From NCBI GenBank assembly GCA_039111635.1, contig JBCAQO010000006.1:2876666-2940665 (forward strand): a stretch of DNA of 64,000 nucleotides. Reading direction: 5' to 3'. The position numbers were made by a program, and so were the translations under genes. The stretch comes from Heterobasidion occidentale (taxonomy: Eukaryota > Basidiomycota > Agaricomycetes > Russulales > Bondarzewiaceae). Positions 41,685 through 64,000 of the stretch are shown piece by piece; the stretch's first letter is position 1; each line of letters starts with the position of its first letter. The notes beneath the pieces were generated by a model. It had not been told where the DNA came from. It made no database searches and saw nothing but the letters and a program-made list of their open reading frames with translations.

Positions 41685-41900
41685 GGTTATAAGAGGTGGT
41701 AGGCGGAGTAGGTGAGACGAAAAAATCCGAGATGTTAGGTAGGTGAGGAGCTAGGTGAGAGGCTAGGTGAGGGGCTAGGTGAGGAGGCAGGTGAGAGGCC
41801 AGGTGAGGAGGCAGGTGAGAGGCAAGGTGAGGAGGCAGGTGAGAGGCTAGGTGAGAGGCCAGGTGAGGAGGCAGGTGAGAGGCTAGGTGAGAGAGTGCAG
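41685..41900 (+). repeat. GGTGAG minisatellite block 1
   Basis: Head module GGTTATAAGAGGTGGTAGGCGG...GTGAGACGAAAAAATCCGAGATGTTAGG, then an array of AGGTGAGGAGGC and AGGTGAGAGGCTA/CCA variants. Confidence 0.9.
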
Positions 41901-41914
41901 CCGTTTCTGGTGAC

Positions 41915-42284
41915 ATGAGGACGTCCCTAAGGACTAGCAGTTGTCTGGGACGAGACACGACGTCTCAGATGTCAGGCAGTTGTCGCAGACGGCCTGCCTG
42001 CATCCTAGACGAGACGCGACGTCTCAGATATTGTTTCAGCCGTTGCAGACGCCTTGTGTTCACCCCAGACGAGGGGGGGACGTCTGAGCCGTCGTGCAGT
42101 CGTCACAGACGTACAGGGTACGCCTGAGACGTTGTACAGTCGTCATAGACGGCCTGTGTGCACTATAGACAAAGGGGAACGTCTGCGACGTCGCGCAGTT
42201 GTCACAGACGTACAGGGTACGTCTGAGACGTCGTGCACTCGTCATAGACGGCCTGTGTGCACCACAGACAAAGGGGGGCGTCTG
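41915..42284 (+). repeat. GACGTC satellite block 1
   Basis: Units built on GACGTCGTGCAGTCGTCACAGACG joined by arms such as TACAGGGTACGTC and GCCTGTGTGCACCACAGAC. Confidence 0.9.
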
Positions 42285-43073
42285 GGTTATAAGAGGTCGT
42301 AGGCGGGTGGTAGGTGAGGCGAAAAAAATCCAAGATGTTGGGTAGGTGAGGAGCCAGGTGAGAGGCCAGGTGAGGGGTTAGGTGAGGAGGCAGGTGAGAG
42401 GCTAGGTGAGGGGCAGGTGAGAGGCTAGGTGAGTAGGTGAGGGGCCAGGTGAAGAGGCAGGTGAGAGGCTAGGTGAGAGGCTAGGTGAGAGGCCAGGTGA
42501 GAGGCTAGGTGAGGAGGCAGGTGAGAGGCCAGGTGAGAGGCCAGGTGGTTAGGTTATAAGAGGTCGTAGGCGGGTGGTAGGTGAGGCGAAAAAAATCCAA
42601 GATGTTGGGTAGGTGAGGAGCCAGGTGAGAGGCCAGGTGAGGGTTAGGTGAGGAGGCAGGTGAGAGGCTAGGTGAGGGGGCAGGTGAGAGGCTAGGTGAG
42701 TAGGTGAGGGGCCAGGTGAAGAGGCAGGTGAGAGGCTAGGTGAGAGGCTAGGTGAGAGGCCAGGTGAGAGGCTAGGTGAGGAGGCAGGTGAGAGGCCAGG
42801 TGAGAGGCCAGGTGGTTATAAGAGGTGGTAGGCGGGTGGTAGGTGAGGCGAAAAAAATCCGAGATGTTGGGTAGGTGAGGAGCCAGGTGAGAGGCTAGAT
42901 GAAGGGCCAGGTGAGGAGGCAGGTGAGAGGCTAGGTGAGAGGCCAGGTGAGGAGCCAGGTGAGAGGCTAGGTGAGGAGCCAGGTGAGAGGCTAGGTGAGG
43001 AGGCAGGCGAGAGGCTAGGTGAGAGGCCAGGTGAGGAGGCAGGCGAGGAGTCAGGTGAGAGAGTAGGTGAGAG
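42285..43073 (+). repeat. GGTGAG minisatellite blocks 2-4
   Basis: Three successive head-plus-array blocks (42285-42545, 42552-42812, 42814-43073). Blocks 2 and 3 are almost identical over about 260 bp, so the whole block was duplicated recently; block 4 is more diverged. Confidence 0.9.
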
Positions 43074-43085
43074 TGCAGCCGTTGT

Positions 43086-44415
43086 TGGTGACATGAGGAC
43101 GTCCGTGACGATTAGCAGTCGTCTGAGACGAGACGCGACGTCTCAGATGTCAGGCAGACGTCGCAGACGGCCTGCCTGCATCCTAGACGAGACGCGACGT
43201 CTGAGACGTCGTTTCAGCCGTTGCAGACGCCTTGTGTTCACCCCAGACGAGGGGGGGACGTCCCAGACGTCGGGCAGTCGTCACAGACGTACAGGGTACG
43301 TCTGCGACGTTGTGCAGTCGTCACAGACGACCTTTGTGCACCACAGACGACCTGTGTGCACCACAGACAAAGGGGGGACGTCTGAGACGTTGCGCAGTCG
43401 TCACAGACGTACAGCGTACGTCTGCGACGTTGTGCAGTCGTCACAGACGACCTGTGTGCACCACAGACAAGGGGGGCTCGTCTGCGACGTTGTGCAGTCG
43501 TCATAGACGACCTGTGTGCACCACAGACAAAGGGGGGACGTCTGAGACGTTGCGCAGTCGTCACAGACGTACAGCGTACGTCTGCGACGTTGTGCAGTCG
43601 TCACAGACGACCTGTGTGCACCACAGACAAGGGGGGACGTCTGAGACGTTGCGCAGTCGTCACAGACGTACAGCGTACGTCTGCGACGTTGTGCAGTCGT
43701 CACAGACGACCTGTGTGCACCACAGACAAGGGGGGCTCGTCTGCGACGTTGTGCAGTCGTCATAGACGACCTGTGTGCACCACAGACAAAGGGGGGACGT
43801 CTGAGACGTTGCGCAGTCGTCACAGACGTACAGCGTACGTCTGCGACGTTGTGCAGTCGTCACAGACGACCTGTGTGCACCACAGACAAAGGGGGCTCGT
43901 CTGCGACGTCACGCAGTCGTCATAGACGACCTGTGTGCACCACAGACAAAGGGGGGACGTCTGGGACGTCGCGCAGTCGTCACAGACGTACAGGGTACGT
44001 CTGGGACGTCGTGCAGTCGTCACAGACGTACAGGGTACGTCTGAGACGTCGTGCACTCGTCACAGACGGCCTGTGTGCACCACAGACAAAGGGGGACGTC
44101 TGCAACGTCGCGCAGTCGTCACAGACGAAGGGGGGACGGCTGCGACGTTGCGCAGTCGTCATTGACGACCTGTGTGCACCACAGACAAAGGGGGACGTCT
44201 GGGACGTCGTGCAGTCGTTACTTAGGTCGGGCAGCGGTCGCAGACGGCCTGCGTGCATCCCAGACAAGAGACGACGTCTGAGACGTTGTGCAGCCGTTTC
44301 TGGTGACGTGAGGACGTCCCTGACGATTAGCAGTCGTCTGAGACGAGACGCGACGTCTCAGTCGTCAGGCAGTCGTCGCAGACGTCCTGCCTGCATCCTA
44401 GACGAGACGCGACAT
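43086..44415 (+). repeat. GACGTC satellite block 2
   Basis: Dense array of the 30-50 bp unit, with a roughly 260-bp higher-order repeat (for example the AAGGGGGGCTCGTCTGCGACG junction near 43471 and again near 43731). Confidence 0.9.
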
Positions 44416-44468
44416 CAGCAAACTGGGAAGCGTCTGTACAGAGCTGGACAGACACTCCAGAGCCCCCA

Positions 44469-44690
44469 GGTTATAAGAGGTGGTAGGCGGATGGTAGGTG
44501 AGACGAAAAAAATCCGAGATGTTAGGTAGGTGAGGAGCTAGGTGAGAGGCTAGGTGAGGGGCTAGGTGAGGAGGCAGGTGAGAGGCCAGGTGAGGAGGCA
44601 GGTGAGAGGCCAGGTGAGGAGCAGGTGAGAGGCTAGGTGAGAGGCCAGGTGAGGAGGCAGGTGAGAGGCTAGGTGAGAGAGTGCAGCTGT
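44469..44690 (+). repeat. GGTGAG minisatellite block 5
   Basis: Head module plus array, very close to block 1 and block 6 in the head sequence (GGATGGTAGGTGAGACG). Confidence 0.9.
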
Positions 44691-44694
44691 TTCT

Positions 44695-47600
44695 GGTGAC
44701 ATGAGGACGTCCCTGAGGACTAGCAGTCGTCTGGGACGAGACGCGACGTCTCAGACATTGTTTCAGCCGTTGCAGACGCCTTGTGTTCACCCCAGACGAG
44801 GGGGGGACGTCTGAGCCGTCATGCAGTCGTCACAGACGTACAGGGTACGCCTGAGACGTTGTACAGTCGTCATAGACGGCCTGTGTGCACCACAGACAAA
44901 GGGGAACGTCTGCGACGTCGCGCAGTCGTCACGAACGTACAGGGTACGTCTGCGACGTCGTGCGGTCGTCACAGACGTACAGGGTACGTCTGGGACGTTG
45001 TGCAGTCGTCACAGACGTACAGTGTACGTCTGGGACGTTGTGCAGTCGTCACAGACGTACCCTGTACGTCTGGGACGTCGTGCAGTCTTCACAGACGTAC
45101 AGGGTACGTCTGAGACGTCGTGCACTCGTCATAGACGGCCTGTGTGCACCACAGACAAAGGGGGACGTCTGAACCGTCGTGCAGTCATCACAGACGACCT
45201 GTGTGCACCACAGACAAAGGGGGGACGTCTGGGACGTCGTGCAGTCGTCACAGACGTACAGGGTACGTCTGGGACGTCGTGCAGTCGTCACAGACGTACA
45301 GGGTACGTCTGGGACGTCGTGCAGTCGTCACAGACGTACAGGGTACGTCTGGGACATCGTGCACTCGTCATGGACGGCCTGTGTGCACTACAGACAAAGG
45401 GGGACGTCGGCAACGTCGCGCAGTCGTCACAGACGACCTGTGTGCACTACAGACAAAGGGGGACGTCTGCAACGTCGTGCAGTCGTCACAGACGTACCGG
45501 GTACGTCTGGGACATCGTGCAGTCGTCACAGACGTACCGGGTAAGTCTGGGACATCGTGCAGTCGTCACAGACGTACAGTGTACGTCTGGGACGTTGTGC
45601 AGTCGTCACAGACGTACCCTGTACGTCTGGGACGTCGTGCAGTCTTCACAGACGTACAGGGTACGTCTGAGACGTCGTGCACTCGTCATAGACGGCCTGT
45701 GTGCACCACAGACAAAGGGGGATGTCTGAACCGTCGTGCAGTCATCACAGACGACCTGTGTGCACCACAGACAAAGGGGGGACGTCTGGGACGTCGTGCA
45801 GTCGTCACAGACGTACAGGGTACGTCTGGGACATCGTGCACTCGTCATGGACGGCCTGTGTGCACTACAGACAAAGGGGGACGTCGGCAACGTCGCGCAG
45901 TCGTCACAGACGACCTGTGTGCACTACAGACAAAGGGGGACGTCTGCAACGTCGTGCAGTCGTCACAGACGTACCGGGTACGTCTGGGACATCGTGCAGT
46001 CGTCACAGACGTACCGGGTACGTCTGGGACATCGTGCAGTCGTCACAGACGTACAGGGTACGTCTGAGACGTCGTACACTCGTCATAGACGGCCTGTGTG
46101 CACCACAGACAAAGGGGGACGCCTGCAACGTCGCGCAGTCGTCACAGACGAAGGGGGGACGGCTGCGACGTTGCGCAGTCGTCATTGACGACCTGTGTGC
46201 ACCACAGACAAAGGGGGACGTCTGCAACGTCGTGCAGTCGTCACAGACGTACAGGGTACGTCTGGGACGTCGTGCAGTCGTCACAGACGTACAGGGTACG
46301 TCTGAGACGTCGTGCACTCGTCATAGACGGCCTGTGTGCACCACAGACAAAGGGGGGCGTCTGGGACGTCGCGCAGTCGTCACAGACGTACAGGGTGCGT
46401 CCGGAACGTTGTGCAGTCGTCATGGATGGCCTGTGTGCACTACAGCCAAAGGGGGACGTCTGCAACGTCGCGCGGTCGTCACAGACGAAGGGGGGACGGC
46501 TGCGACGTTGCGCAGTCGTCATTGACGACCTGTGTGCACCACAGACAAAGGGGGACGTCTGGGACGTCGTGCAGCCGTCACTTAGGTCGGGCAGCGGTCG
46601 CAGACGGCCTGCGTGCATCCCACACAAGAGACGACGTCTCAGACGTTGTGCAGCCGTTGCTGGTGACATGAGGACGTCCCTGACGATTAGCAGTCGTCTG
46701 AGACGAGACGTGACGTCTCAGACGTCGTGCAGCCGTCGCAGACGGCTTGTGTTCACCCCATATGAGGGGGGGGGGGGACGTCCCAGACGTCGGGCAGCGG
46801 TCGTAGACGACCTGCGTGCATCCTAGACGAGGGGGGAACGTCCCAGACGTCGGGCAGCGGTCGCAGATGGCCTGCGTGCATCCCAGACGAGATGCGACGT
46901 CTGAGACGTCGTGCAGCCGGTGCTGGTGACATGAGGACGTCCCTGACGACTAGCAGTCGTCTGAGACGAGACGCGACGTCTCAGACGTCAGGCAGTCGTC
47001 GCAGACGGCCTGCCTGCATCCTAGACGAGACGCGACGTCTCAGACGTCGTGCAGCCGTTGCAGACACCTTGTGTTCACCCCAGATGAGGGGGGGGGGACG
47101 TCCCAGACGTCGGGCAGCGGTCGCAGATGGCCTGCGTGCATCCCAGACGAGATGCGACGTCTGAGACGTCGTGCAGTCGTTGCTGGTGAGGTGAGGACGT
47201 CCCAGACGGACAGCAGTCGTCTGAGACGAACAGCAGTTGTCTGAGATGAACAGCAGTCGTCTGAGACGAACAGCAGTCGTCTGAGACGAGACACGACGTC
47301 TCAGAGGTCAGGCAGCCGTCGCAGACGGCCTGTGTGCATCCCAGACGAGACGCGACGTCTCAGATGTCGTGCCGTCGTTGCTGGTGAGGTGAGGACGTCC
47401 CAGACAAACAGCAGTCGTCCCAGACGAACAGCAGTCGTCTCAGACGAACAGCAGTCGTCTCAGACGAACAGCAGTTGTCTGAGATGAACAGCAGTCGTCC
47501 CAGACGAACAGCAGTCGTCTGAGACGAGACACGACGTCTCAGAGGTCAGGCAGCCGTCGCAGACGGCCTGTGTGCATCCCAGACGAGACGCGACGTCTCA

Positions 47601-48880
47601 GATGTCGTGCCGTCGTTGCTGGTGAGGTGAGGACGTCCCAGACAAACAGCAGTCGTCCCAGACGAACAGCAGTCGTCTCAGACGAGCAGCAGTCGTCTCA
47701 GACGAACAGCAGTCGTCCCAGACGAACAGCAGTCGTCCCAGACGAACAGCAGTCGTCCCAGACGAACAGCAGTCGTCCCAGACGAACAGCAGTCGTCTCA
47801 GACGAGCAGCAGTCGTCTGAGATGAACAGCAGTCGTCTGAGACGAACAGCAGTCGTCTGAGACGAACAGCAGTCGTCTGAGACGAGGCGCGACGTCTCAG
47901 ATGTCAGGCAGCTGTCGCAGGCGGCCTGTGTGCATCCCAGACGAGACGCGACGTCTCAGACGTCGTGCCGTCGTTGCTGGTGAGGTGAGGACGTCCCAGA
48001 CGGACAGCAGTCATCTGAGACGAGATGCGACGTCTCAGACGTCGTGCACTCGTTGCTGGTGAGGTGAGGACGTCCCAGACGATTAGCAGTCGTCTGAGAC
48101 GAGACGAGACGTCTCAGACGTCAGGCAGTCGTCACAGACGGCCTGCCTGCATCCCATACACAACGCGATGTCTGAGACGTCGTGCAGCCGTTGCTGGTGA
48201 CATGAGGACGTCCCTGACGACTAGCAGTCGTCTGAGACGAGACGCAACGTCCCAGACGTCAGGCAGTCGTCCCAGACGGCCTGCCTGAATCCTGGAGGAG
48301 ACGCGACGTCTCAGACGTCGTGCAGCCGTCGCAGACGGCTTGTGTTCACCCCAGATGAGGGGGGGACGTCCCAGACGTCGAGCAGCGGTCGCAGACGGCC
48401 TGCGTGCATCCCAGACGAGGAGGAGACGTCTCAGACATCAGGCAGCGGTTGAAGATGGCCTGTGTGCACTCCAGACGAAGGGGGGACGTCTCAGACGTCG
48501 CACAGCCATCGAAGACGGCCTATGTGTACCACAGACGAAGGGGGACGTCTCAGACGTCGCACAGCCGTCGCAGACAGCCTGCGTGCATCCCAAACAAGGA
48601 GGAGATGTCTCAAACGTCGGGCAGTGGTTGCAGACGGCCTGTGTGCACCCAAGACGAAGGGGGGACGTCCCAGACGTTGCACAGCCGTCGCAGACAATCT
48701 GTGTGCACCCCAGACAAAGGGGGGACGTCTCAGACGTCGCACAGCTGTCGCAGATGAACAGTGTGCATCCTAGACAAGATGCGAGGTCTCAGCTGTTGTG
48801 CAGCCATCACAGGCTACCTGTGTGCAGCCCAGACAAGGAGGAGATGTCTCAGATGTCGGACAGTGGTTGCAGGCAGCCTG
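44695..48880 (+). repeat. GACGTC satellite block 3
   Basis: About 4.2 kb. Includes long higher-order copies: a segment with the variant GCAGTCTTCACAGACG recurs about 557 bp apart (45053-45262 and 45610-45833). A 20-bp sub-array lies at 47190-47885. Confidence 0.9.
47190..47885 (+). repeat. 20-bp tandem repeat
   Basis: Unit CAGACGAACAGCAGTCGTC plus one base (C or T followed by A/G variants), about 25 copies in three clusters separated by the ordinary satellite unit. Confidence 0.9.
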
Positions 48881-48884
48881 CACA

Positions 48885-49470
48885 CATCCCATACCGGACT
48901 AGGACGTCACAGACGACTAGCAGCTGTCTGAGACGAGACACGACATCACGGGAGACTAGGAGTCATCTGAGACGAGACGCGACGTCTCAGACGACTCGCA
49001 GTCATCTAAGGCAAGCCCTATGCTAAGGTTAGCCGTCCCAGGCAGGACACGACGTCAGTGACGCCGGGCAGCTGTCGCAGGCAGTCTGCATGCGTCCCAT
49101 ACCGAGCTAGGATGTCACAGACAACTAGCAGGTGTCTGAGACGAGACGCAACGTCGCAGATGACTTGGAGTCATCTGAGACGAGACGCGACGTCTCAGAC
49201 AACTTGCAGTCATCTAAGGCAAGCCCTATGCTAAGGTTAGCCGTCCCAGGCAGGACACGACGTCAGTGACGCCGGGCAGCTGTCACAGGCAGTCTGCATG
49301 CATCCCATACCGAGCTAAGACGTCACAGACGACTAGCAGTTGTCTGAGACAAGACGCAACATCGCAGACGACTAGGAGTCATCTGAGACGAGACACGGCA
49401 TCTTAGACAACTCGCAGTCATCTGAGGCAAGCTCTATACTAAGGTTAGCCATTCCAGGCAGCCTGCTTGC
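48885..49470 (+). repeat. tandem repeat of about 210 bp, three copies
   Basis: Copies begin at the CCCATACCG motif near 48887, 49096 and 49306. Each contains CACAGAC-ACTAGCAG, AGTCATCTGAGACGAGAC, GCAGTCATCT-AGGCAAGC and ACTAAGGTTAGCC. Confidence 0.85.
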
Positions 49471-49780
49471 ATTGCAGACTAGACGTGATCTCTGAGATGC
49501 TGGGCAGCTGTTGCAGATGGCCTGTCTTAGACAAACTTAGTTGGCATTGCCAACTGTAGATGTCTCAGACAGCCTGCAGCTATCTTAGACTAAGGCAGGT
49601 GTCTGAGACAACATACAGTCGGCATTGACGACAGCAGGTGTCTTAGACAGTATCCAGCCATCTTAGACGACAGCAGGCGTCTCGGCAAATATATACTAGG
49701 GAGGACAGGGGAACTCACCGGTGACAGAGACCACGGAAGGGGATAAGGCTGACTTGTGAGTAATATGGATAGGCCATCTA
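49471..49780. repeat. degenerate GACGTC satellite edge
   Basis: Decayed units (CAGCTGTTGCAGATGGCC, GTCTTAGACAGTATCCAGCC) fading out at about 49690. Confidence 0.6.
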
Positions 49781-49787
49781 GTTAGGT

Positions 49788-50325
49788 AGACAATATTCAA
49801 ACAGCACAGACAGTACAGACAATGTGTATAGCAGTTCAACAGCCATCTGCCCTCAGTGCCCTGGTCGGACTCATCAGGAGATCTGGCATGTCTACAGTGC
49901 TGCGTACAGATTGTCTGCATCGTCTGTGCCATTTGCAAGTAGCTAGTATAGAAAAAGGGAGCGGTTAGATTTAGATCTGATAACAGAAATATTGAGGGCT
50001 GAGAGTGTGGCTGTCGGGATGCGGATGCGGAGGACGTGGAGTGTGTGGCGTGGCGGCAACGGCAGCGGCAAGGAGGAAGGAGAGGTCACGACATGCCACC
50101 GTCGCAACCATCAAGACACAGACGGCACGAGGGGACGTAGACGACGGGCGGGTGACATAGTGGATGGACAATACTCAAACGACACAAACGACACAGGCAA
50201 TGTATGTACGCAGCTCGACAGCTATCCCACCTCAGTGCCCTGGTCGGACTCATCGGTACATCTGGCATGTCTAGAGTGCTGTGCATGAATCGTCTGCATC
50301 GTCTGCATCGTCCGAGTGGTGTGTG
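49788..50325 (+). repeat. duplicated subtelomeric segment
   Basis: 49788-49930 and 50158-50325 are diverged direct copies sharing ACAATA-TCAAAC, CTCAGTGCCCTGGTCGGACT, ATCTGGCATGTCTA and CGTCTGCATCGTCTG. Part of the unit recurs at 57551-57582. Confidence 0.75.
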
Positions 50326-50988
50326 CTAAAGAAGAAAACAACGAGGGGTGACCGGGCTTAGCGTCGAGGGCGGAAACATCGAGGGCTGAGTGCGTGATCA
50401 TCGGGATGCCACAGTCGAGACATCCGCGCGGGTCGAACAGGAAAGCGGGGATGGCGGAGAGCGAGTCGAGCGGGAGAGCAGGCGTGGCGCCAACCATGTT
50501 GAGACAGAGGGCGGGCGTGTGTTGCATCGACGGCGGTAACGCACGAAGTCTATGGTCGAGAGTCGAGGAAGTTGAGATGGTCGAACAGGCAGAGCGGGAG
50601 TGGTGTCGAATGGGTTGGGAGGGAGAAGCGGGAGAGCGGGAGTGGTGGTGAGGGCGGACAGGACGAGGGCGGAAGGTACGTACCTTTGCACCACTTAGCC
50701 GCGTCCTTCCTAGCTAAACTCCCCGCCGGCAGCTGCTCCTCGCCTCCTTGTCGACGCGTTCAAGCGCGTGCGGCATGATATTTGAGATGCTTTGCGCACG
50801 GGCGCAGAGCGCAAGTGTGGCGGGGGCGGGGGCGCGAGAAGGGACGGCACCGAGGGCGGAATCGGTCAACGGGGTCATGGGGGCCAAGTAGACGCATTTG
50901 AGGGGTCAAGGGGACGCGCACAATGTCGAGGGGACGCGCACGGGCGGGCGTGAGCTACAGGCGAAGACGAGCGCACGAGTAGATCTTA
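50326..50988. other. gap between satellites, nothing recognised
   Basis: GC-rich, with short open frames on both strands but no motif. Confidence 0.4.
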
Positions 50989-51918
50989 GGTTATAAGAGG
51001 TGGTAGGCGGATGGTAGGTGAGACGAAAAAAATCCGAGATGTTAGGTAGGTGAGGAGCTAGGTGAGAGGCTAGGTGAGGGGCTAGGTGAGGAGGCAGGTG
51101 AGAGGCCAGGTGAGGAGGCAGGTGAGAGGCTAGGTGAGGAGGCAGGTGAGAGGCTAGGTGAGGAGGCAGGCGAGAGGCCAGGTGAGGAGGCAGGTGAGAG
51201 GCCAGGTGAGGAGGCAGGTGAGAGGCTAGGTGAGGAGGCAGGTGAGAGGCCAGGTGAGGAGGCAGGTGAGAGGCTAGGTGAGGAGGCAGGCGAGAGGCCA
51301 GGTGAGGAGGCAGGTGAGAGGCCAGGTGAGAGGCTAGGTGAGGAGGCAGGCGAGAGGCTAGGTGAGAGGCCAGGTAAGGAGGCAGGTGAGAGACCAGGTG
51401 AGGAGGCAGGTGAGAGGCTAGGTGAGGAGGCAGGTGAGAGGCCAGGTGAGGAGGCAGGTGAGAGGCTAGGTGAGGAGGCAGGCGAGAGGCCAGGTGAGAG
51501 GCCAGGTGAGAGGCCAGGTGAGGAGGCAGGTGAGAGGCTAGGTGAGGAGGCAGGCGAGAGGCCAGGTGAGGAGGCAGGTGAGAGGCCAGGTGAGAGGCTA
51601 GGTGAGGAGGCAGGCGAGAGGCTAGGTGAGAGGCCAGGTAAGGAGGCAGGTGAGAGACCAGGTGAGAGGCTAGGTGAGAGGCCAGGTGAGGAGCCAAGTG
51701 AGAGACTAGGTGAGGAGTCAGGTGAGAAGGCAGGTGAGGAGTCAGGTGAGAAGGCACGTGAGGAGGCACGTGAGGAGGCAGGCGAGGAGGCATCCGAAAA
51801 GGCACATGAGGAGGCACGTGAGGAGGCACGTGAGAAGGCACGTGAGGAGGCACATGAGGAGGCACATGAGGAGGCACATGAGGAGGCAGGCAAGGAGGCA
51901 GGCAAGGAGGCAGGCAAG
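50989..51918 (+). repeat. GGTGAG minisatellite block 6 (largest)
   Basis: Same head as block 5, then about 930 bp of AGGTGAGGAGGC / AGGTGAGAGGCC units. The right end drifts to CACGTGAGGAGG, CACATGAGGAGG and CAGGCAAGGAGG. Confidence 0.92.
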
Positions 51919-51919
51919 G

Positions 51920-53810
51920 TAGCTATCTCAGACAACATGCAACTGTCTCGGACACTATACAGACCATCTGCATGCATTTCAGATGACATGTGGACATCAG
52001 TTAGTGTGTGGCTGTTGCAGACAAGTTGTGTGCATCTCAGATGACACTCGGACATCTTAGATGACTGGCAGACATCTTATACAGTGTGCGGCCCTCGCAG
52101 ACAACCTGTGTGCATCTCAACACAGCGTGCAGCCGTCATACGACATGCAGATGTCTTAGACAACTGGCAGACATCTCATATAGTGTGCAGCTGTCGGAGA
52201 CAACCTACGTGCATGTCAGACGACATGGGGACGTCGTAGACAAAACGCGGACGTCTCAGATGACCGGAAGTCATTTCAGACGACCTGCGTGCATCTCATG
52301 CAACATGCGGACGTCTAAAACAGTGTGCAGCCCTCGAAGACGACCTGCGTGTATCTCAGACGACACGCGGATGTCCCAGATGACCAGCAGTCATTGCAGG
52401 AAGGATGAGGTCGTCACTGACGACCTGCCTGCATCTCAGATGACACGCGGACGTCTGAGACAGTGTGCAGCCGTCACAGACAACCTGCATGCATCTCAGA
52501 CAACACAGGGACGTCTAAGATGACACGCGGATGTCTCAGACGACTGGTAGTTGTTGCAGGCAGGATGCGGTCGTCACTGACGACCTGTGTGCATCTGAGA
52601 CGACACGCGAACGTCTCAGATGACCGGCAGTCATTGCAGGCAGGATGAGACCGTCACTGACGATCTGCCTGCATCTCAGACGACACGCGGATGTCTGAGA
52701 CAATATTTGGCCACTGTAGATGACCTGCTTCTCTAACGATACACAGACGTCTGAGACGGTGTGCGGCCGTCGCAGACGACCTGCTTCTCTAACGACACGC
52801 AGACGTCTGAGACAGTGTGCGGCCGTCTCAGACGACACCCAGACATCTCAGACGACCGGCAGTCATTACAGGCAGGATGAGGCCGTCACTGACGACGGAG
52901 ACGCCCTATAGGCAGGTCACGTCTGCCGGTGGCCATGAATGCATTGGGCACCTGCCTGCATCTCAGACGACACGTGGACGTCTGAGACAGTGCGCAGCCG
53001 CTGCAGACGACCTGCTTCTCTGACGACACGCAGAAGTCTGAGGCAGTGTGCGGCCGTCGCAGACGACCTGCTGCTCTAATGGCACACAGACGTCTGAGAC
53101 AGCATACTGCCGCCGCAGACAACCGGCTTCTTTAACTACACGCAGACGTCTCAGACAGTGTGCGGCCGTGGCAGACGACACGCAGATGTCTCAGACGACC
53201 GGCATTCATTGCAGGCAGGATGAGGTCGTCACTGACGACCTACGTGCATCTCAGACGACATGCAGATGTCTCAGACACTATGCAGCCATCGCAGATGACT
53301 GCCAGTCATCTCAGACAACATGCAGCCGTGTTAGATATTACGCGGCCGTCGCAGACAACCAGCGAGGTGCTCAGACAACAGACGGACTATGAGGCTGTTG
53401 CAGACGACCGGCAGCTATTGCAGGCAACATGCAGCCATCACAGAAAACCGGCGGGCATCACAGACAACCGGCAGGCATCTCAGACGATATGCAGCCATCT
53501 CAGACAGTACGCAGCCGTCACAGGTGAGATGTGGCCGTCTGAGATAGTATGCAGATGTCACAGAGGTGCTCAGACAACAGACGGCCCATATGGGTGTCGC
53601 AGACGACTGGCAGCTATCACAGGTGACTTGCGACCGTCTCAGACAGCTGGTAGCCATCTCAGACGACATGCAGCCCTCTTAGATACTATGCGTCTGTCAA
53701 AGACAACGGGCAAGGTGCTCAGACAACAGATCGAGCATGTGGCCATCACAGACGACTAGCAGCCATCACAGGCAACATGCGGCCGTCACAGACGGCCCAC
53801 AACTCTAGAG
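51920..53810 (+). repeat. GACGTC satellite block 4, degenerate
   Basis: Older copies of the unit: CAGACGACACGCGGACGTCT, GTGTGCAGCCGTC, ACCTGCATGCATCTCAGA. Order is kept but identity is lower than in blocks 2 and 3. Confidence 0.85.
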
Positions 53811-56736: not shown

Positions 56737-57189
56737 GGCGAGTGGGGACTGAGGAGATACCGGCTGGCGCGATGGCGATTATATAGCCCTCGCCTCATCT
56801 GTGGGGCGTCTTCCTTGCCAGACTTGACGCCGCTCTGGAATTCGATAAAGGCTCCCTCGAACCTTCGCATTGCCGATCTGTTGATGCGTCGAGTCATCAG
56901 GGTCGAACGGCCGCGCCATGCGAGGTGTTTTTATCGCTCAAGCCACGAGTCTTTCATGTTTCTATTCATTCATAAAGATAAGGTTAGACTCCGTGAAAGG
57001 GCGACGTAAGGTACTTACCTACGAATCCTCGCCTCGCACCGTACTCGAGGCGAGACCCACTCCGCGCAGACATGCCTCGAGGACTTCAGAGGCATCGTGG
57101 ACGCGTCATACTCGTAACCCCCGCTTCCCATCGCGCCCGCCTGCAGGTCGGGGCTCAGCGTGGCAGGCCGTGTGCCGCACCTGGTAGGA

Positions 57190-57545
57190 TTAGGTGGTGA
57201 CCGTCGCTCCCACATCTATGACGCCCGTCCTGAGCTCGAGCCCACAGCACGCGCCCGCATGTTTGTCCATCCCTTTGAGCCACAGGCCCATGGCTATATC
57301 CTGTTGTTATGTTAGCTCGATTTTGAGCGGCGAAAAATAAATGAACTCACCGGCATTGAGCTTCTCTGATGACAAGGGGTCTGTCGCAGAGGGGTGGGAG
57401 GTGGGACAATGCGCTGAAAGATCGGAGCGACTCGCAGGTCGTGCGGAGACGCCGCGGGAGCAGCAAGGCCAACACACAAGCGGAGGCTGTTGACAAAGGG
57501 CGACGCGGGCCACTTGAGAAGACGCAGACGAACGAGACCGACCAT
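57190..57545 (-). CDS. possible small subtelomeric gene
   Basis: Minus-strand exons 57545-57351 and 57300-57190 join in phase 0 across a 50-bp intron with good GTGAGT and ACAACAG ends; 101 aa. Exon 1 gives MVGLVRLRLLKWPASPFVNS..., and exon 2 gives DIAMGLWLKGMDKHAGACCGLELRTGVIDVGATVTT. Only the second exon looks protein-like. No family recognised, and the first exon overlaps the edge of a dispersed repeat near 57551. Confidence 0.25.
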
Positions 57546-57550
57546 GGTGT

Positions 57551-57582
57551 GCAGCCATCTGCCCTCAGTGCCCTGGTCGGAC
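57551..57582 (+). repeat. third partial copy of the 49.8-kb repeat
   Basis: GCAGCCATCTGCCCTCAGTG followed by CCCTGGTCGGACT, nearly identical to 49840-49871. Confidence 0.75.
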
Positions 57583-57620
57583 TATCTACCTTATTTCCGC
57601 TTATCACCCTGATAAGCAGC

Positions 57621-57652
57621 CGTCTCGTCTCGTCTCGTCTCGTCTCGTCTCG
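57621..57652 (+). repeat. (CGTCT)n microsatellite
   Basis: Six perfect CGTCT units, followed by CGCTTCTCGTCTC. Confidence 0.9.
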
Positions 57653-57819
57653 CTTCTCGTCTCAACTCGCTTTTGGTCTGCCCTGCCTTCCGCGGGACAT
57701 CCCAATGCACAAGACCACTTTTCAAGGTCTCTGAGGCTCTATACAAGTCTATTCAACGCAACGTGGAGACTGCCGGACCATAATCGAATGAGTGTACCAT
57801 GTTTGACCTTTACACCGTC

Positions 57820-58075
57820 GGCTATTTTTTTGAAAAGCATGATTTCCCGGCTCTGTAGGAAGAATTTTTGAATTCTGTTGATACATCTGGGATCCTCTCA
57901 CTGAGGTGCACCTTACCGCAAATTTTCTAAATTTTGAAATTCCAAGACTCCGCAAAAGTGCCGGCTATTTTTTTTAAAAATGTGATTTCGTGGCTTAATA
58001 TTGAGCATTTTCGAACTTCGTCAACACATATGGAATCCTATGACTGAAATGCACATTTTCGAAATTTTGGCTTAT
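57820..58075 (+). repeat. two AT-rich direct repeats of about 120 bp
   Basis: 57820-57945 and 57960-58075 share CGGCTATTTTTTT, GTGATTTC/ATGATTTC, GAATTTTTGAA/GCATTTTCGAA, ACATATGGAATCCT-like and TTTCTAAATTTTG-like segments in the same order. Confidence 0.6.
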
Positions 58076-58080
58076 TACAT

Positions 58081-58470
58081 AAGGGGGGGAGGTAGTACCC
58101 CCCTCCTGACATAAGCGGTTCACAATATGAAGGTGCACTACCGACGGGCTGGTCTAGGTCACATATTTAGCCAAATAAGCACAAATAGCCTCCTTGCTAT
58201 ATAAACACTTGAAGCTGTGACATGTGTGACTTTCTCTTTTGACTTCGAACCACCATCATCCTGTAAGTCATTATTTCAACCTTAATTTCGAAAAAAAATC
58301 AGATTTTATTCTCACGCTTTGGGAGGTGGTACCACTTTCCTAACTAAGACATGAGAAAGGCTTAGTCAGGGGGGGGATGTGACTTACCCCCCTGACTCAG
58401 CTTGCTTGAGTTGAAAAAAGCCTGAGCAAGCTTAGTCAGGGGGGGAAGTAACCTACCCCCCTGACTAAGC
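58081..58470. repeat. G-run inverted repeats upstream of the element gene
   Basis: Three hairpins: GGGGGGGAGGTAGTACCCCCC (58082-58105), GTCAGGGGGGG...CCCCCCTGAC (58374-58399) and CTTAGTCAGG...CCTGACTAAG (58431-58467). GCTTGCT...AGCAAGC lies between the last two. Confidence 0.8.
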
Positions 58471-58570
58471 ACTGTGTTCAGTGTGGAAGACACTTTACTT
58501 TTATCAGTCTTTGATTTCTTTAAAATAAATCTTAAATGCTCATTTATGTTTGCTTCAGATATTAATAACA

Positions 58571-60134
58571 TGTCTACAAACCTTTACAAGATTAAAGCCA
58601 AGTCTGATGGTTCAGGACCATGGTTTGAGCTAACAAGCCCTGAAGGCCGGATTTTCATCTTCAAACGTGCTGATGACAACTACTATTGCCAATGCAGTGC
58701 TGATGATCATTCAATGGTTCCTGGAAGCTTTAAAAGAGGAAAGACCCTTGCAGATCATATGATCAAATGAAGAGTACATGGTGTGGTTCTGAGCCTGTAT
58801 TTCCATTCAAGGTTAGTAGCCTTTTACTTTGGTTCAATTATATTCTCAAATTATAATTATTACAGGCCGGAACCATAGTTGATCCATTGCACTTGCCTAA
58901 ACGCCTTAGAGATTTACCTGTCAATTATCCTATCCCAAACGTAGGCATCATATCTATTATGATTAGATTGTAGAGCTAATTGTTCATCTAGTTGTCTATT
59001 CCTCCATTGTCCACAGTTGTTGGGAACATGAACCATACAATTTTTACGACCGCTTCTCATCATTCACAGTCTTCTTTACTAGTCCAGTCTAACAACGGTG
59101 ATACTGCTGCGCAACAAGAACAAGACGTCGTACCTCAAGAGGAAGACATCGTAATGCAGCCAGTGGAACCTGAAGTTATTGTGGACCAGTATGAGGTATT
59201 ATAAATTAATTGAGTGTGCTGATTTTAATATATTAATAAATAACAATAGAGTTCAGAGCCAGACACAGATTTCCTCAATGGCCAATCAAATATTCCAGTG
59301 TTTGATGAGGTACCTTTTTATTGAATAACTATCTCAAATAATAACTGATTGATAATTTATAGCTTAAATCAGTTTCTATCTTTAGCGAGTATGGTCTTGT
59401 TTGCAACATCCGTCTTGGCGCCCTCCTTTGTATTTCTTGCGGTATCATCGTCACTCCTCAAACTGTTCATGCTCATCTTCAAAATAGGTTAGGTTAGGTT
59501 AGGTTAGGTTAGGTTAGGTTAGGTTAGGTTTAGGTTAGGTTAGGTTAGGTTAGGTTAGGTTAGGTTAGGTTAATTGGTTAGGTTAGTTAGGTTATTCCAA
59601 TCAGCCAAAGGACCTCTGCATTCAATATGAAGGGCTCAAGTGTATTCAAGGTTATAGGTGCGATGTTGATGGCTGTAGTGTCTATCGTGGAACACCCAAG
59701 TCAGCCAAGGATCATCATCAGCGTGACCACAAAGACATATCTCTTCCTGGAGCATGGCAATCGACTTATATTCAGCGCTGGAACAGTTTTAATCACCGAT
59801 ACTTTCCAGTCATCCCTCGCTCACAAGTCACTCGTCCACATGAAGACATTCTTCATTCTGTCAAGACTATGCTTGATGACCTTATGGCTCTTGATGTTCA
59901 TGCGGAAACTGATCGTCGATTGGTAGATCCATTTCTTAACAAAGTTGGCTGGCATCTTCACTTTGAGGGACAAGATTTTATCTTTCTTCACAAGCTTGGC
60001 GCTGCTCCCATTCACACAGAGTTTCCTGTGCTAAAATCTGGTCTTCTTTATCTGTTGCGATCAATGACTGTAGAGCTTGGCCTTATCTCAGACTTGGTTA
60101 GAAAAAAGGTCAATACGGAAGATCGTGCAACTGG
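58571..60134 (+). CDS. telomere-element protein, N-terminal part with OrsD-like zinc fingers
   Basis: First part of what I read as one long gene (58571-63889). Exons 58571 to 58811 (one unresolved frame change near 58765), 58866-58940, 58992-59195, 59250-59309, 59363-59492 and 59591-60134. It begins MSTNLYKIKAKSDGSGPWFEL with a CQC...H patch, then an acidic-Gln linker (QQEQDVVPQEEDIVMQPVEPE). Two zinc-finger-like modules follow in the order known from OrsD-type proteins: LLCISCGIIVTPQTVHAHLQ and, after an array of TTAGG repeats, YEGLKCIQGYRCDVDGC...HHQRDH. This kind of module would suit DNA binding, perhaps to the telomeric repeat. A/T-rich codon use differs sharply from genes left of 57 kb. 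The short AT-rich introns keep good GT-AG ends. Confidence 0.65.
59488..59594 (+). repeat. internal TTAGG telomere-like array
   Basis: About 20 copies of the 5-bp unit GGTTA, with one TTT variant (59529) and a degenerate right end (TTAATTGGTTAGGTTAGTTAGG). It interrupts the coding sequence between the two zinc-finger modules; in every frame it contains TAG stops. The repeat itself carries GT...AG, so splicing from 59493 to 59590 would restore the frame. Confidence 0.9.
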
Positions 60135-60186
60135 GTAAGCTATTCCTTACAATTTCTAACAACTTGATACTAATACTTGATAATAG

Positions 60187-62177
60187 CTTGAATCATACAC
60201 CTTTCAGTGACCATCTTCTTGATGAAACTCTTGAGTCATATATGGTTCCCATCATCTCAATCCTTGCAGCCTATCTTCGTGCCAAGCCGACGGACTCATA
60301 CAAGCTCACAACCACTCCAGCGCTTGAGCAGCATCTTCATCATCTCCGTCAGGCTCTTACAACCAAGGACCACAAGCTTATTTCTGCTGCGATCGATCCA
60401 ATTCTGCTAGATTTGTTCACAACATCATGGGAGCCTGCGACTGGTCAAAACCTACAAGATCCTGTTATGCGCTGGATAGCGTTATCAATGATCAACAACA
60501 AAGGCGCATTCAAACCGGCACCTAGCTGCACACAAACACTTGCACGTCTCACGTACATCATTCGTCTGGTTATTTGTCACAAAGTACGACAGCTAGTTTT
60601 GGATCCACAAGGCCATCGTATCCAATCAGATGATGTGGCCTTTGCTTCCTTGGCCAAGTGGACAACCGAGGGCGAAGAAAGCACGTTCAATAGCATCAGG
60701 TCGTTACAGCACCTTGCCAGCGCAATCGCACATGCAACTATGGGAGAAATGCGCATTTGGTGGACAGATCATGAACATCATACAGAGATGCTCTATCATG
60801 GTGAAAAGGTCACGTTAGATGGGCTACGTGCAATGGCAAGGTCAATCATGCATGCTCAAAAAACATCATTCGAGAGGCTATTTGAAGGGATGAAGCTGCG
60901 GTGCAAGTACGACACCATTCATGACGATCCTTCCAACCGCGAAGTAGGCTATTGCTATTTGGACCATCCTCGCAACCGCGAAATCTTTGGAGATCAAGAT
61001 CGTATGCTGAATGCAGTTCTTATAACTCCTCAAGTACGCGCCAAGTTTGTTACAGGCTTTCAAGAAGACGGGACAATTATCTGGAACGAGCGGTATTGCA
61101 AAGAATGGCTACATCATTATGCGGAATTTGAAGCACAACAAGTCCTTTCGATTGAGGTACTAGGTGGAGCCGCAAGCCGAATCAGTGAACTTGGTGCCTC
61201 TAATCTACGCAATACTTTGACTCGTGACAAGCGCAGCTGTCTGATACTGGACAAACATGTTACTCTGATGCGGTATTACACCAAGCGTACTGCGATTGAA
61301 GGCCACGACAAAGCAATTCCTACTTCACTTCCTGCCCACACAGCTGATCTCATGATTCAAGACCATGCTATTCTTCGTCCATTTGCATTGCGGTTAGCAG
61401 CGATTGTCATGAAAAGCAGTCCTGATTGCGTTCGACGATATCGCGATCGCTTGTTTGTCAACTATGACAGTGATTTTGAGGCCAAGACCATCACCACTCT
61501 TATGGGCCGCCATAGTCGAAAGGAAGAGACACTGGGTTGGCCGATGAATGTCAATGCGTACCGTCACATCAATATTGCTTTTCGCCGTCATCATTGCCGA
61601 CCTATCGAGCACTTAATAGAATCAGACGAGGGAGATACCATTGGTGCTCTTCAAGCAGGTCACACAGCTAAAGTTGCAAGAGAACACTACGCCATCAGCA
61701 ATGAGATCATTGAAGGGAAAATTGCGGAGGAGGTTCTTCCTTTATATCTGGACTACAGCGGAGACTTTCAGCGAGTGTTGCATATTGTTCCTGGTGGTCA
61801 ATTTATACACTACAAGAAGGCGATCGATGGCTGGGACAGTTACAAGCCAACCAAGTCGACTAATTCCACTCCTACACTCGCTCCTTCAACCGCAGTCGCA
61901 ACCATTGATACCGGTGATATTGTCACTCAGCTTATGCAGCAACTGGGTCCCTTGATTACGACCAAGATTGACCAAGGACTTGCGGAGATCAAACAAGCAC
62001 ATAACGAAAGCATGAAGAAAAATGAGGCAGCGTTTGAAAACAGGCTAACTAGAACAATTGATGAAATGAAGGATCTATCGTCGGGTATTTTGAGCAATGC
62101 TTTGGAACAAGTTAAAGCTACAGCAGGACTCTATCGACCACAAGTTCAAGATGAGGCCTCTATATCAATGCCTGATT
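60187..62177 (+). CDS. tyrosine-recombinase-like domain of the telomere element
   Basis: Large exon continuing from 60134 across a 52-bp intron (GTAAGC...AATAG); about 660 residues. A helical N-terminal region precedes a catalytic-domain pattern of tyrosine recombinases: box I ASRISEL (Arg at 61178), beta-hairpin TKRTAIEGHDKAIPTSLP (Lys at 61283), box II NAYRHINIAF (Arg at 61562, with Asn where His is usual), QAGHTAKVAREHYA (His at 61661, Tyr at 61688). Arg-to-Tyr spacing of about 170 residues fits the fold. Such enzymes cut and rejoin DNA without replication and move Crypton-type elements. A coiled segment follows (IKQAHNESMKKNEAAFENRL). I infer recombinase activity from motifs only; no alignment was possible. 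Confidence 0.65.
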
Positions 62178-62227
62178 GTGGGTAATACTTAATCTCAAGT
62201 AAGATAGCTGATTAAAAGTATTTATAG

Positions 62228-63889
62228 TGGGTGGCTTGCACATACCATCTGGCCCTTCTTCAATGCAGCAAGATGAAGATGACGATGGTAGACAAGATTT
62301 ATCCTTATAGCACAACTTATCACTGATATCCAAATAGATGAAGAGAACATGTATGCAAACCCAGAAGAGTATGATATACCATCAGATATCAGAGAGGTGC
62401 CTATTGAAGGAGACGACAACACTGATGAGGAAAGCGAAGAACAAGAAATAGGTAAGCGAATTACTTAACATGCTTGAATGTTGCTTAAAACAAATTACTG
62501 TTTAAAGTGCGACGTGGCATTCATGGAGTTCAAGCTGATTCAGACGTTGCTTTTGAGCATGCGGCTCTTAATATTTTCCATGATATCTTTCCATCACGGC
62601 CTGGAGCATGGAGTTGTCCTGAACAGCGGCAAGCGTTTTTTGCGCTTCTTCACCTTGAACAAGATGTGATCATGGCGATGGGCATGGGCAGCGGCAAGAC
62701 GTTTCCTATGATCTTATGTTCACAGCTGGAGCGCAACAAGGCCACCATTGTTATTCTTCCTTTGATCTCTCTTATGACCGACTATGTGGACAAGTTGACC
62801 AAGTGGAAGATACCATTTCACAAATTTGTTGCCAACCATCCTATTATTCCATCTGGCACACAGCTGATTCTTGCAACAGCCGAGACTACGACAATGCCCT
62901 CCTTCAAAAAGGCTTGCATGCTTCACCATCAACAAACTCCTATTGTACGCGCTTGCTTTGACGAAGCACAGCTTGCACTGTATCAAGCGGACTTTCGCTT
63001 TGCTCTTCGAACGGTCTCTAATCTGCGCTTTCATGATGAAATGCAGCTTGTTGTTCTTTCTGGCACGATGCCTGCGCGTTCTATTCCTGAACTCAAGGAG
63101 CGATTCTACCTAACAGACAATGCTATCATCATTCGAACGACAACCAATCGACCTAATCTCAAATTTGTTCTCAAGACCTTTAGGCCCTCTGTTGATCTTG
63201 CCTCTGTTGTTTCTGAACTGCGACAGACCACTTATAGAATAGAGGATACCACACTAGACCCTCTGCCCTTTGCGCAAGAAAATGATACTCAAGAGCTTTT
63301 AGAGCATGGACCTTGGATTAAACCGTTAACTTGGTTGTACATGGATCAGCCGTATCATTCAATTTTCTTTGTGCCAAGATATGAGTTGGGCGAAAGACTT
63401 GAGTCGGAGACGGGCAATGCGTTTTACCATGGAGACAATACGAAGCTGACAGAGGCGGCAAGAGAGGAAATGTTTTATGCTTGGAAGAATAATCCGATTG
63501 GGGATATTATAGCGACTTCGGCGATGGGACAGGGTGGAGACTGTCAAGATGTCTATCTAGTTGTGCATGTTGACACTCCAACAGGATTAGGATCATGTCT
63601 TCAAGAATGTAATCGAGGAGGAAGAGATGGACATGTCTGTGTTTGCTATATTCTTGCGCAGGACACTAGATCGTGGCGACCCTCGAAGGGCAATCTGGAT
63701 CACAACGGGGCGATAGACATGCACAAGCTTATTTGGTCATCAAGAGCATGTTTGCGATATGCGTTTACTCTATGGGTTGATGGAGTTGGTGTTTGCTGTT
63801 TAGATGACGCGGAAAATGAGCGATGCTCACATTGCGAAGCATATGGAGAGTCTGAACCATATATTCTTCGCAAGTTTAGGATCACTTAG
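62228..63889 (+). CDS. RecQ-type helicase domain of the telomere element
   Basis: Exons 62228-62287, 62338-62452 and 62509-63889 follow in phase from the recombinase exon (intron 62178-62227, GTGGGT...ATAG), so I take them as the C-terminus of the same protein. After an acidic linker come helicase motifs: GMGSGKTF (Walker A), ILPLISLMTDY, FDEAQ (DEAQ in place of DEAH), VVLSGTMPA, IIIRTTTNRPNLKF, FYHGDN, DIIATSAMGQGGD and the arginine-finger motif CNRGGRDG. The RecQ zinc-binding cysteines are visible in ACLRYAFTLWVDGVGVCCLDD...CSHC. The reading frame ends at a TAG formed by the first TTAGG unit. This matches the telomere-linked RecQ-like helicases known near fungal chromosome ends. Confidence 0.8.
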
Positions 63890-64000
63890 GTTAGGTTAGG
63901 TTAGGTTAGGTGGTTAGGTTAGGTTAGGTTAGTTAGTTAGGTTAGGTTAGGTTAGGTTAGGTTAGGTTAGGTTAGGTTAGGTTAGGTTAGGTATGTTAGG
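63887..64000 (+). repeat. terminal TTAGG array
   Basis: About 22 units of TTAGG with variants (GGTGGTTAGG, TTAGTTAGTTAGG, GGTATGTTAGG), running to the window edge. The G-rich strand points right, as expected if the chromosome end lies beyond 64000. No TTAGGG unit occurs. Confidence 0.85.

Follow-up and report, generated by a model that had tools for sequence, protein, structure and literature searches.

Descriptions of RecQ-like helicase genes at fungal telomeres go back to 1998, and the roles in telomere maintenance proposed for them are not settled (PMC7473861, in the part of the article available). In that part of the same paper, on Agaricus bisporus, the helicase core is the only domain found, and an OrsD domain is noted in UTASb of U. 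maydis and for the recQ gene of Metarhizium (available parts of PMC10532341 and PMC11457142). A screen of fungi for fusions derived from transposable elements found helicases to be the commonest such domains, and its available text does not name the fusion described here (PMC10799480). Here we analyze contig C6 of Heterobasidion occidentale at its right end, as a window of 64,000 nucleotides whose end is also the end of the contig. The window contains a gene in which a RecQ-like helicase is preceded by a domain with the predicted fold of a tyrosine recombinase, lying in a repeated unit that has a fixed left terminus and faces the telomere with its right side. We consider it probable (at about 0.7) that this unit is a mobile element of chromosome ends made by its recombinase, in a one-ended or a two-ended form, and that the window holds one broken copy. 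The presence of a predicted recombinase within the telomere-linked helicases appears to be new; no description of it was found in the literature searched, outside which most preprints and subscription papers lie.

A predicted tyrosine recombinase in a telomere-linked helicase gene

The domain encoded by the sixth exon of the gene is, by structure prediction, a tyrosine-recombinase fold with a conserved Arg-Lys-Arg-His-Tyr set, and DNA cleavage with strand exchange is its predicted activity. The five catalytic residues lie at exactly the bases given for them by the first-pass annotation of this DNA, with R331 at 61178, K366 at 61283, R459 at 61562, H492 at 61661 and Y501 at 61688. The AlphaFold2 model, made with 76 sequences, has a predicted local distance difference test score (pLDDT) of 87.6 and a predicted template modelling score (pTM) of 0.78. 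It contains three strands (351-354, 357-364 and 375-380), with Lys366 in the turn after the second. When the model is aligned by VIA-align, which only re-aligns chains proposed by Foldseek, the top 21 rows are all tyrosine recombinases, of which 19 are matched over nearly the full model and two over the catalytic part only. The scores include XerH at 10.9, an integron integrase at 10.2, XerA and Cre at 9.9 each, Tn1549 at 8.7, lambda at 8.4 and the protelomerase TelA at 7.4; the first row that is not a recombinase is a designed helical bundle, at 6.4. An earlier and poorer model gave the same top family. The recombinase fold proposed in the first-pass annotation is thus borne out by the structure prediction and its alignments.

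The catalytic residues are strongly conserved. Letters are present at all five columns in 123 of 129 homologues, and R, K, R, H and Y all occur together in 111 of these. Taken singly, Y501 and K366 are found in all 123, H492 in 122, R331 in 120 and R459 in 114; ranked among 551 columns, Y501 is first and K366 fourth, with R459 only 86th. Of the attributes of the tyrosine recombinase superfamily, the fold (in the model) is present together with Arg, Lys, Arg, His/Trp and the nucleophilic Tyr; the first His of the HxxR motif mostly is not. Comparison of the recombinase exon with copy C2 (79% protein identity) gives a ratio of non-synonymous to synonymous substitution rates (dN/dS) of 0.095 over 662 codons, with dS near saturation at 1.17, and on such a comparison of coding sequences the exon is under purifying selection. 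The C2 copy (C2:166116-168101, L065; 79% identical) is an open recombinase frame of 676 codons, with no helicase among the matches listed there.

The helicase is readily identified. Pfam finds DEAD at E 2.5e-10 and Helicase_C at E 2.8e-07, a sequence search of the PDB finds BLM at E 1.5e-11, and NCBIfam also supports a RecQ-like assignment; the RecQ-like core that characterizes telomere-linked RecQ helicases is therefore present, as first annotated. The zinc fingers are OrsD-like, as had been proposed, though the match lies under the curated Pfam cut-off in both copies scanned from this genome and above it in relatives. In the window copy the second half of the domain matches OrsD at E 0.02, and in copy C1 the match is at E 9.8e-06, with 26.4 bits against a cut-off of 26.6. 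All three modules run in one direction, on the + strand, as the first-pass annotation had it.

The left terminus and its target sites

The element has a sharply defined left end:
57583..57598, + strand: left terminus TATCTACCTTATTTCC, a 16-mer that occurs 17 times in the genome (control 0), preceded by C at 57582
57599..57617, + strand: subterminal palindrome GCTTATCA-CCC-TGATAAGC, which folds as single-stranded DNA (-6.2 kcal/mol, z -6.7)

The unit in the window consequently begins at 57583, ~1 kb to the left of 58571, where it had been taken to start and where exon 1 of the gene does begin. The assembly comprises 45 Mb in 159 contigs, and we name copies after contig labels, the window copy being C6end (C6 in the group C6/C4/C16). 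Homology between copies begins sharply ~1.0-1.35 kb before the start codon, at a point common within C6/C4/C16 and within C5b/C105/C1. In the more diverged C14i, the terminus is reached by BLAST only against the C5b group. The left end reads TATC, and C immediately precedes the element in all 17 copies, whose flanks are all different. The palindrome follows the terminus at 15 of the 17 left ends and varies between subfamilies in a compensatory way; C2:303k and C6i are without it and have no fold. It is a possible recognition hairpin for the recombinase.

Related versions that are free of the element exist for seven of the flanks (C6end, C4, C16, C5b, C6i, C7 and C11), with identities of 87-100%; the longest matching stretch covers 31 bases for C6end, and 99-101 of a 100-base flank for the other six. 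Element-free versions of the window flank stand at window 49840-49870 and in L078. By best match, the target base that follows is T for six flanks and G for C16; of the four relatives shown for C11, three have T and one has C. The C1 flank is part of a tandem repeat and ambiguous, and the nine other flanks have no relative in the sequence compared. None of the 17 left junctions is in TTAGG, and the flanks compared (200 to 57,582 bases each) contain no tract of three or more TTAGG units, except in C3. Judging from these junctions, the element has thus probably been joined near C|T to ordinary DNA, not into telomere repeats. The suggestion that it inserts into telomeric repeats is not upheld, given the C that precedes all 17 left ends and the position of TTAGG on the outer side.

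Two sister elements (C11:16500-18610 and C7:2514000-2516090; L081 and L083, with L075 and L076) share the 16-base left end and have a related leader. After its left end the C11 element has a different open frame containing a 'LIDGQHRFHAARE' stretch, which we take to be DGQHR-like, with no recombinase match among the matches listed there; C7 is 98% identical to C11 over the stretch read. C2:303k and C6i share only ~850 bases. The different frame of C11, the likeness of C7 to it and the ~850 bases of C2:303k and C6i suggest that these four were moved in trans or are remnants.

The telomeric side of the element

The telomere repeat of this genome is TTAGG: a 25-mer of it matches 64 times forward and 68 times in reverse (control 0), and many of these matches are at contig ends. 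The unit is of five bases, and some units are imperfect. TTAGGG is the telomere repeat of many fungi; it is described in Ganoderma also. In the window the repeat closes the sequence:
63886..64000, + strand: terminal (TTAGG)n array, at the contig end, abutting the truncated gene directly

The copies have one orientation in common, with the right side facing the telomere. The right junction can be seen in 11 of the 17; C5a and C13 stop in a gap, C12 stops at a contig end, and C7, C11 and C2:303k are not assessable. Ten of the 11 have TTAGG at the right. Nine of them (C1, C3, C4, C5b, C6end, C6i, C14e, C16 and C105) run directly into it, followed in C4, C5b and C6i by a run of N, and the tenth, C5c, has a short tract of four TTAGG units and then satellite. 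C14i reaches furthest to the right, extending past the points at which C4 and C16 stop, and then passes into the satellite that is also present at C5c. Truncation points differ between the telomeric copies compared, and the right junctions are simple additions of TTAGG, some with short shared bases. Multiple copies adjoining telomere repeats are the mark of telomere-linked genes, and here nine are joined directly to TTAGG; seven of these extend beyond exon 1, whereas C3 is cut within exon 1 and C6i before any part of the gene. Among the first 100 matches listed, the element is present at seven of the 12 TTAGG tracts that are terminal or adjacent to a gap. We considered the apparently internal copies on C4 and C5 as interior insertions and rejected this because a 100-N gap follows their TTAGG; we read them as chromosome ends joined by scaffolding.

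Inward of the element, ~12 kb of the window (41737-53794) is dense in complex satellites, with 12/24-base G-rich, 40/60-base and 267-base units. The 267-base unit begins GGTTATAAGAGG, and elsewhere adjoins TTAGG or element ends (at the C2 end, C5c and C14i). Rfam has no match at its gathering threshold in 57000-64000.

Gene structure and the state of the window copy

The gene of the window copy is laid out as follows:
58571..58811, + strand: exon 1; lacks one A of the aligned copies, near 58768, and so has a stop after 66 amino acids
58866..58940, + strand: exon 2; GT..AG introns placed by hand
58992..59195, + strand: exon 3; hand-placed splice sites
59250..59309, + strand: exon 4; hand-placed splice sites
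59363..60134, + strand: exon 5, OrsD-like zinc-finger pair (Pfam OrsD), split here by TTAGG repeats
59485..59594, + strand: interstitial (TTAGG)n tract, replacing 76 coding bases present in copy C4
60187..62177, + strand: exon 6, predicted tyrosine recombinase, then linker; modelled part 60188-61840 (AlphaFold2, VIA-align, catalytic residues)
62228..62287, + strand: exon 7, linker; hand-placed splice sites
62338..62451, + strand: exon 8, acidic linker; hand-placed splice sites
62508..63885, + strand: exon 9, RecQ-like helicase (DEAD and Helicase_C), cut before its natural end; the 3′ ends of C4 and C16 are longer

Splice sites were placed by hand. Eight GT..AG introns of 50-56 bases each give a single open frame up to the telomeres in C1 (1594 amino acids) and C5b (1777 amino acids), and the GTGGGT donor of the intron after exon 6 yields one continuous frame. 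The claim of a single protein therefore holds, as a predicted frame, for C1 and C5b, but not for the window copy with its missing A, its TTAGG tract and its cut end. The missing A could be an assembly error. The spliced genes of C4, C16 and C105 are frameshifted. The terminal TTAGG array cuts the window gene at 63885; C16 continues its last frame for ~620 bases further, giving an open frame of 673 amino acids against 466.

The 5′ and 3′ halves of the window copy are both nearest to C4 and C16, at 99.7 and 99.9% to C4, and the internal tract is therefore explained most simply as a later local break repaired with telomere repeats. Removal of the tract as a spliced intron was considered and rejected, since splicing would not bring back those first-finger residues that the 76 bases encoded; we therefore take the window copy to be broken. 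Its broken state was overlooked in the first-pass annotation, as were the homologues in many other fungi.

Homologues and a second family

How general is this arrangement in fungi? A profile search finds 216 proteins at E <= 0.001 among the 7,999 best candidates scored. The names, taken from the best 120 of the 216, include among the matches listed Termitomyces, Pisolithus, Boletus, Suillus, Lyophyllum, Cyclocybe and Galerina, and a homologue in Grifola frondosa carries the label tlh2. The order OrsD, recombinase, helicase recurs in single predicted proteins of other fungi. Three of them (P0016, P0019 and P0033) are above the Pfam cut-offs for OrsD, DEAD and Helicase_C and also match the recombinase profile. 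By simple motifs all three modules are present in 18 of 129 homologues, many of the others being partial proteins.

This genome also has a second family with the same order of modules, 24-26% identical, on C10 (L066), on the left side of C6 (L067) and on C8 (L068). The copies on C6 and C10 retain Arg, Lys, Arg-His, His and Tyr.

Proposed mobility of the element

The fixed left terminus, the differing flanks, the element-free relatives of those flanks and the TTAGG on the outer side lead us to regard the unit as probably a recombinase-encoding mobile element. A telomere-linked and probably mobile unit is what the first-pass annotation had suggested, and the 17 left termini and nine copies directly on TTAGG accord with it. 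In its movement the recombinase would recognize the left end, comprising the terminal 16 bases and the palindrome, and would join it to C|T targets close to or at chromosome ends that are broken or short. Unwinding of DNA by the RecQ part may serve the joining or subsequent copying outwards, and telomerase would then seal the remaining outer end. The element would thereby spread among chromosome ends and supply a disposable buffer of sequence. The outcome may be a one-ended capping of chromosome ends. The specific form, in which a DNA transposon works with one end only, its folded left end being joined to C|T where a chromosome is broken or eroding and its variable outer end being sealed by telomerase, is put forward tentatively; it includes the proposal that the telomere-linked helicases of agaricomycetes belong, as its proteins, to a distinct class of DNA transposon, which caps chromosomes and acts as expendable buffer DNA.

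The element could instead move in a two-ended form, as a Crypton-like circle that inserts by both ends into subtelomeric DNA and whose outer half is then trimmed and healed by telomerase. This falls short of being likely yet is a serious contender, and its chances lie inside the overall probability that we give to a mobile element. It would account for the precise left ends, the varied flanks and the varied truncation, for junctions that are plain TTAGG additions, some sharing short bases, and for the extension of C14i past the stop points of C4 and C16. However, in none of the 11 assessable copies was a distal flank seen, and chance trimming within an element of ~7 kb on many ends requires a strong target bias towards ends. 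Nor has a short direct repeat of the two ends been demonstrated, the left end being defined while the furthest right end (C14i) adjoins satellite.

Passive spread of telomere-linked helicase genes by homologous or break-induced recombination, with the recombinase as a domesticated DNA-binding relic, seems improbable to us. Such helicases are usually described as subtelomeric genes (available parts of PMC10532341, PMC7473861 and PMC4522978), and the 5′ and 3′ halves differ in their relationships between copies, so that exchange between copies does occur. Yet homologous exchange would not be expected to give one exact left boundary beside unrelated flanks, as in all 17 cases, or element-free relatives of seven flanks, and the catalytic residues are nearly invariant, unlike in the domesticated DUF3504 proteins, where most of them are missing (PMC3212892, in the part available). 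It is very unlikely that a helical domain resembles the recombinases here by chance, with the left terminus coming from an unrelated mobile element that carries the gene. The lack of a sequence-profile match or of significance in Foldseek would fit this, as would the sister elements C7 and C11, which have the same left end, followed in C11 by a different open frame; against it, 21 recombinase entries stand above every unrelated row, 19 near full length and two in the catalytic part only, and the five catalytic residues are conserved.

A number of observations weigh against a mobile element driven by its recombinase. Foldseek gave no significant match for either model or in the viral library. 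The best E was 0.53 for the first model and 1.1 for the second, both to unrelated chains, with XerH at ranks 41 and 2, and in the viral library it was 0.42. No sequence profile ties the domain to known recombinases: phmmer and a profile search of the PDB gave no link, Pfam gave no match in single proteins or in 50 members, and PHROGs and NCBIfam gave none in five proteins. The first His of the HxxR motif is mostly replaced, being N in 84 of 123 homologues and H in four; this position varies within the tyrosine recombinase superfamily. The element-free sites are related repeats rather than the same locus of another strain, and the window target flank (57500-57582) is itself repeated, at window 49840-50249 and beside the C4 and C13 copies. 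C3 has a 25-base TTAGG tract (C3:3988861-3988885, L048) 486-511 bases inward of its left end. C11, C7, C2:303k and C6i would have had to be moved in trans, or are remnants. The 11 assessable copies include no complete two-sided insertion; in three further copies the right side cannot be assessed, and another three run out at a gap or at the end of a contig. Among the copies read in the assembly none is uninterrupted from start to natural stop: telomere repeats truncate C1 and C5b, and C4, C16, C105 and the window copy are frameshifted, some perhaps through assembly errors. No movement of the element has been observed.

Comparison with known systems

The element resembles the telomere-linked RecQ helicases (UTAS of U. 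maydis, TLH of Magnaporthe, recQ of Metarhizium and those of Agaricus bisporus var. burnettii) in having a helicase beside telomere repeats and many truncated copies, and differs from them in adding a recombinase domain and a fixed terminus. With Cryptons and the captains of Starships it shares a tyrosine recombinase (here a predicted one), and like them has no reverse transcriptase in the frames scanned; a Pfam scan of three window frames and the N-terminal 442 amino acids of C1 found OrsD and helicase only. Unlike those elements it has a fused RecQ-like helicase and an outer end at the telomere. In 50 members, Pfam gave no hit to the models of these families. For the Crypton/DUF3504 family there was no match at E up to 0.1, which is weak evidence at this divergence, and for Starships there was no DUF3435 match and no further gene was recognized in the frames scanned. 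Helitrons have an HUH Rep with a Pif1-type helicase, and ends of the form 5′-TC..CTRR-3′. Here the helicase is of the RecQ/DEAD type, no Rep is present in the frames scanned and the left end is TATC.

The integron integrase is the third-best row of the fold matches, and the left end of the element can fold as a single-stranded hairpin, inviting comparison with attC; this resemblance, and that to the protelomerases through TelA, is in fold only. Telomere-specific tyrosine recombinases of nimaviruses have a zinc-binding domain and are linked to (TAACC/GGTTA)n in crustaceans (PMC10871703, available part); endogenous nimaviruses, however, are large viruses flanked by telomere repeats, whereas the left junctions here are never telomeric. 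Many predicted fungal proteins contain the recombinase domain and would have to be annotated anew, and a conserved, unannotated recombinase together with a precise left terminus makes it directly testable whether telomeric RecQ genes are mobile and add sequence to chromosome ends. The telomeric retroelements (MoTeR, FoTeR and Penelope-like elements) have the same single orientation at chromosome ends and many truncated copies (for FoTeR, PMC12857005; see also PMC4522978; both in the parts available), and differ in carrying reverse transcriptase. If our reading is correct, the element described here would be a DNA-based counterpart to these telomere-dwelling retroelements.
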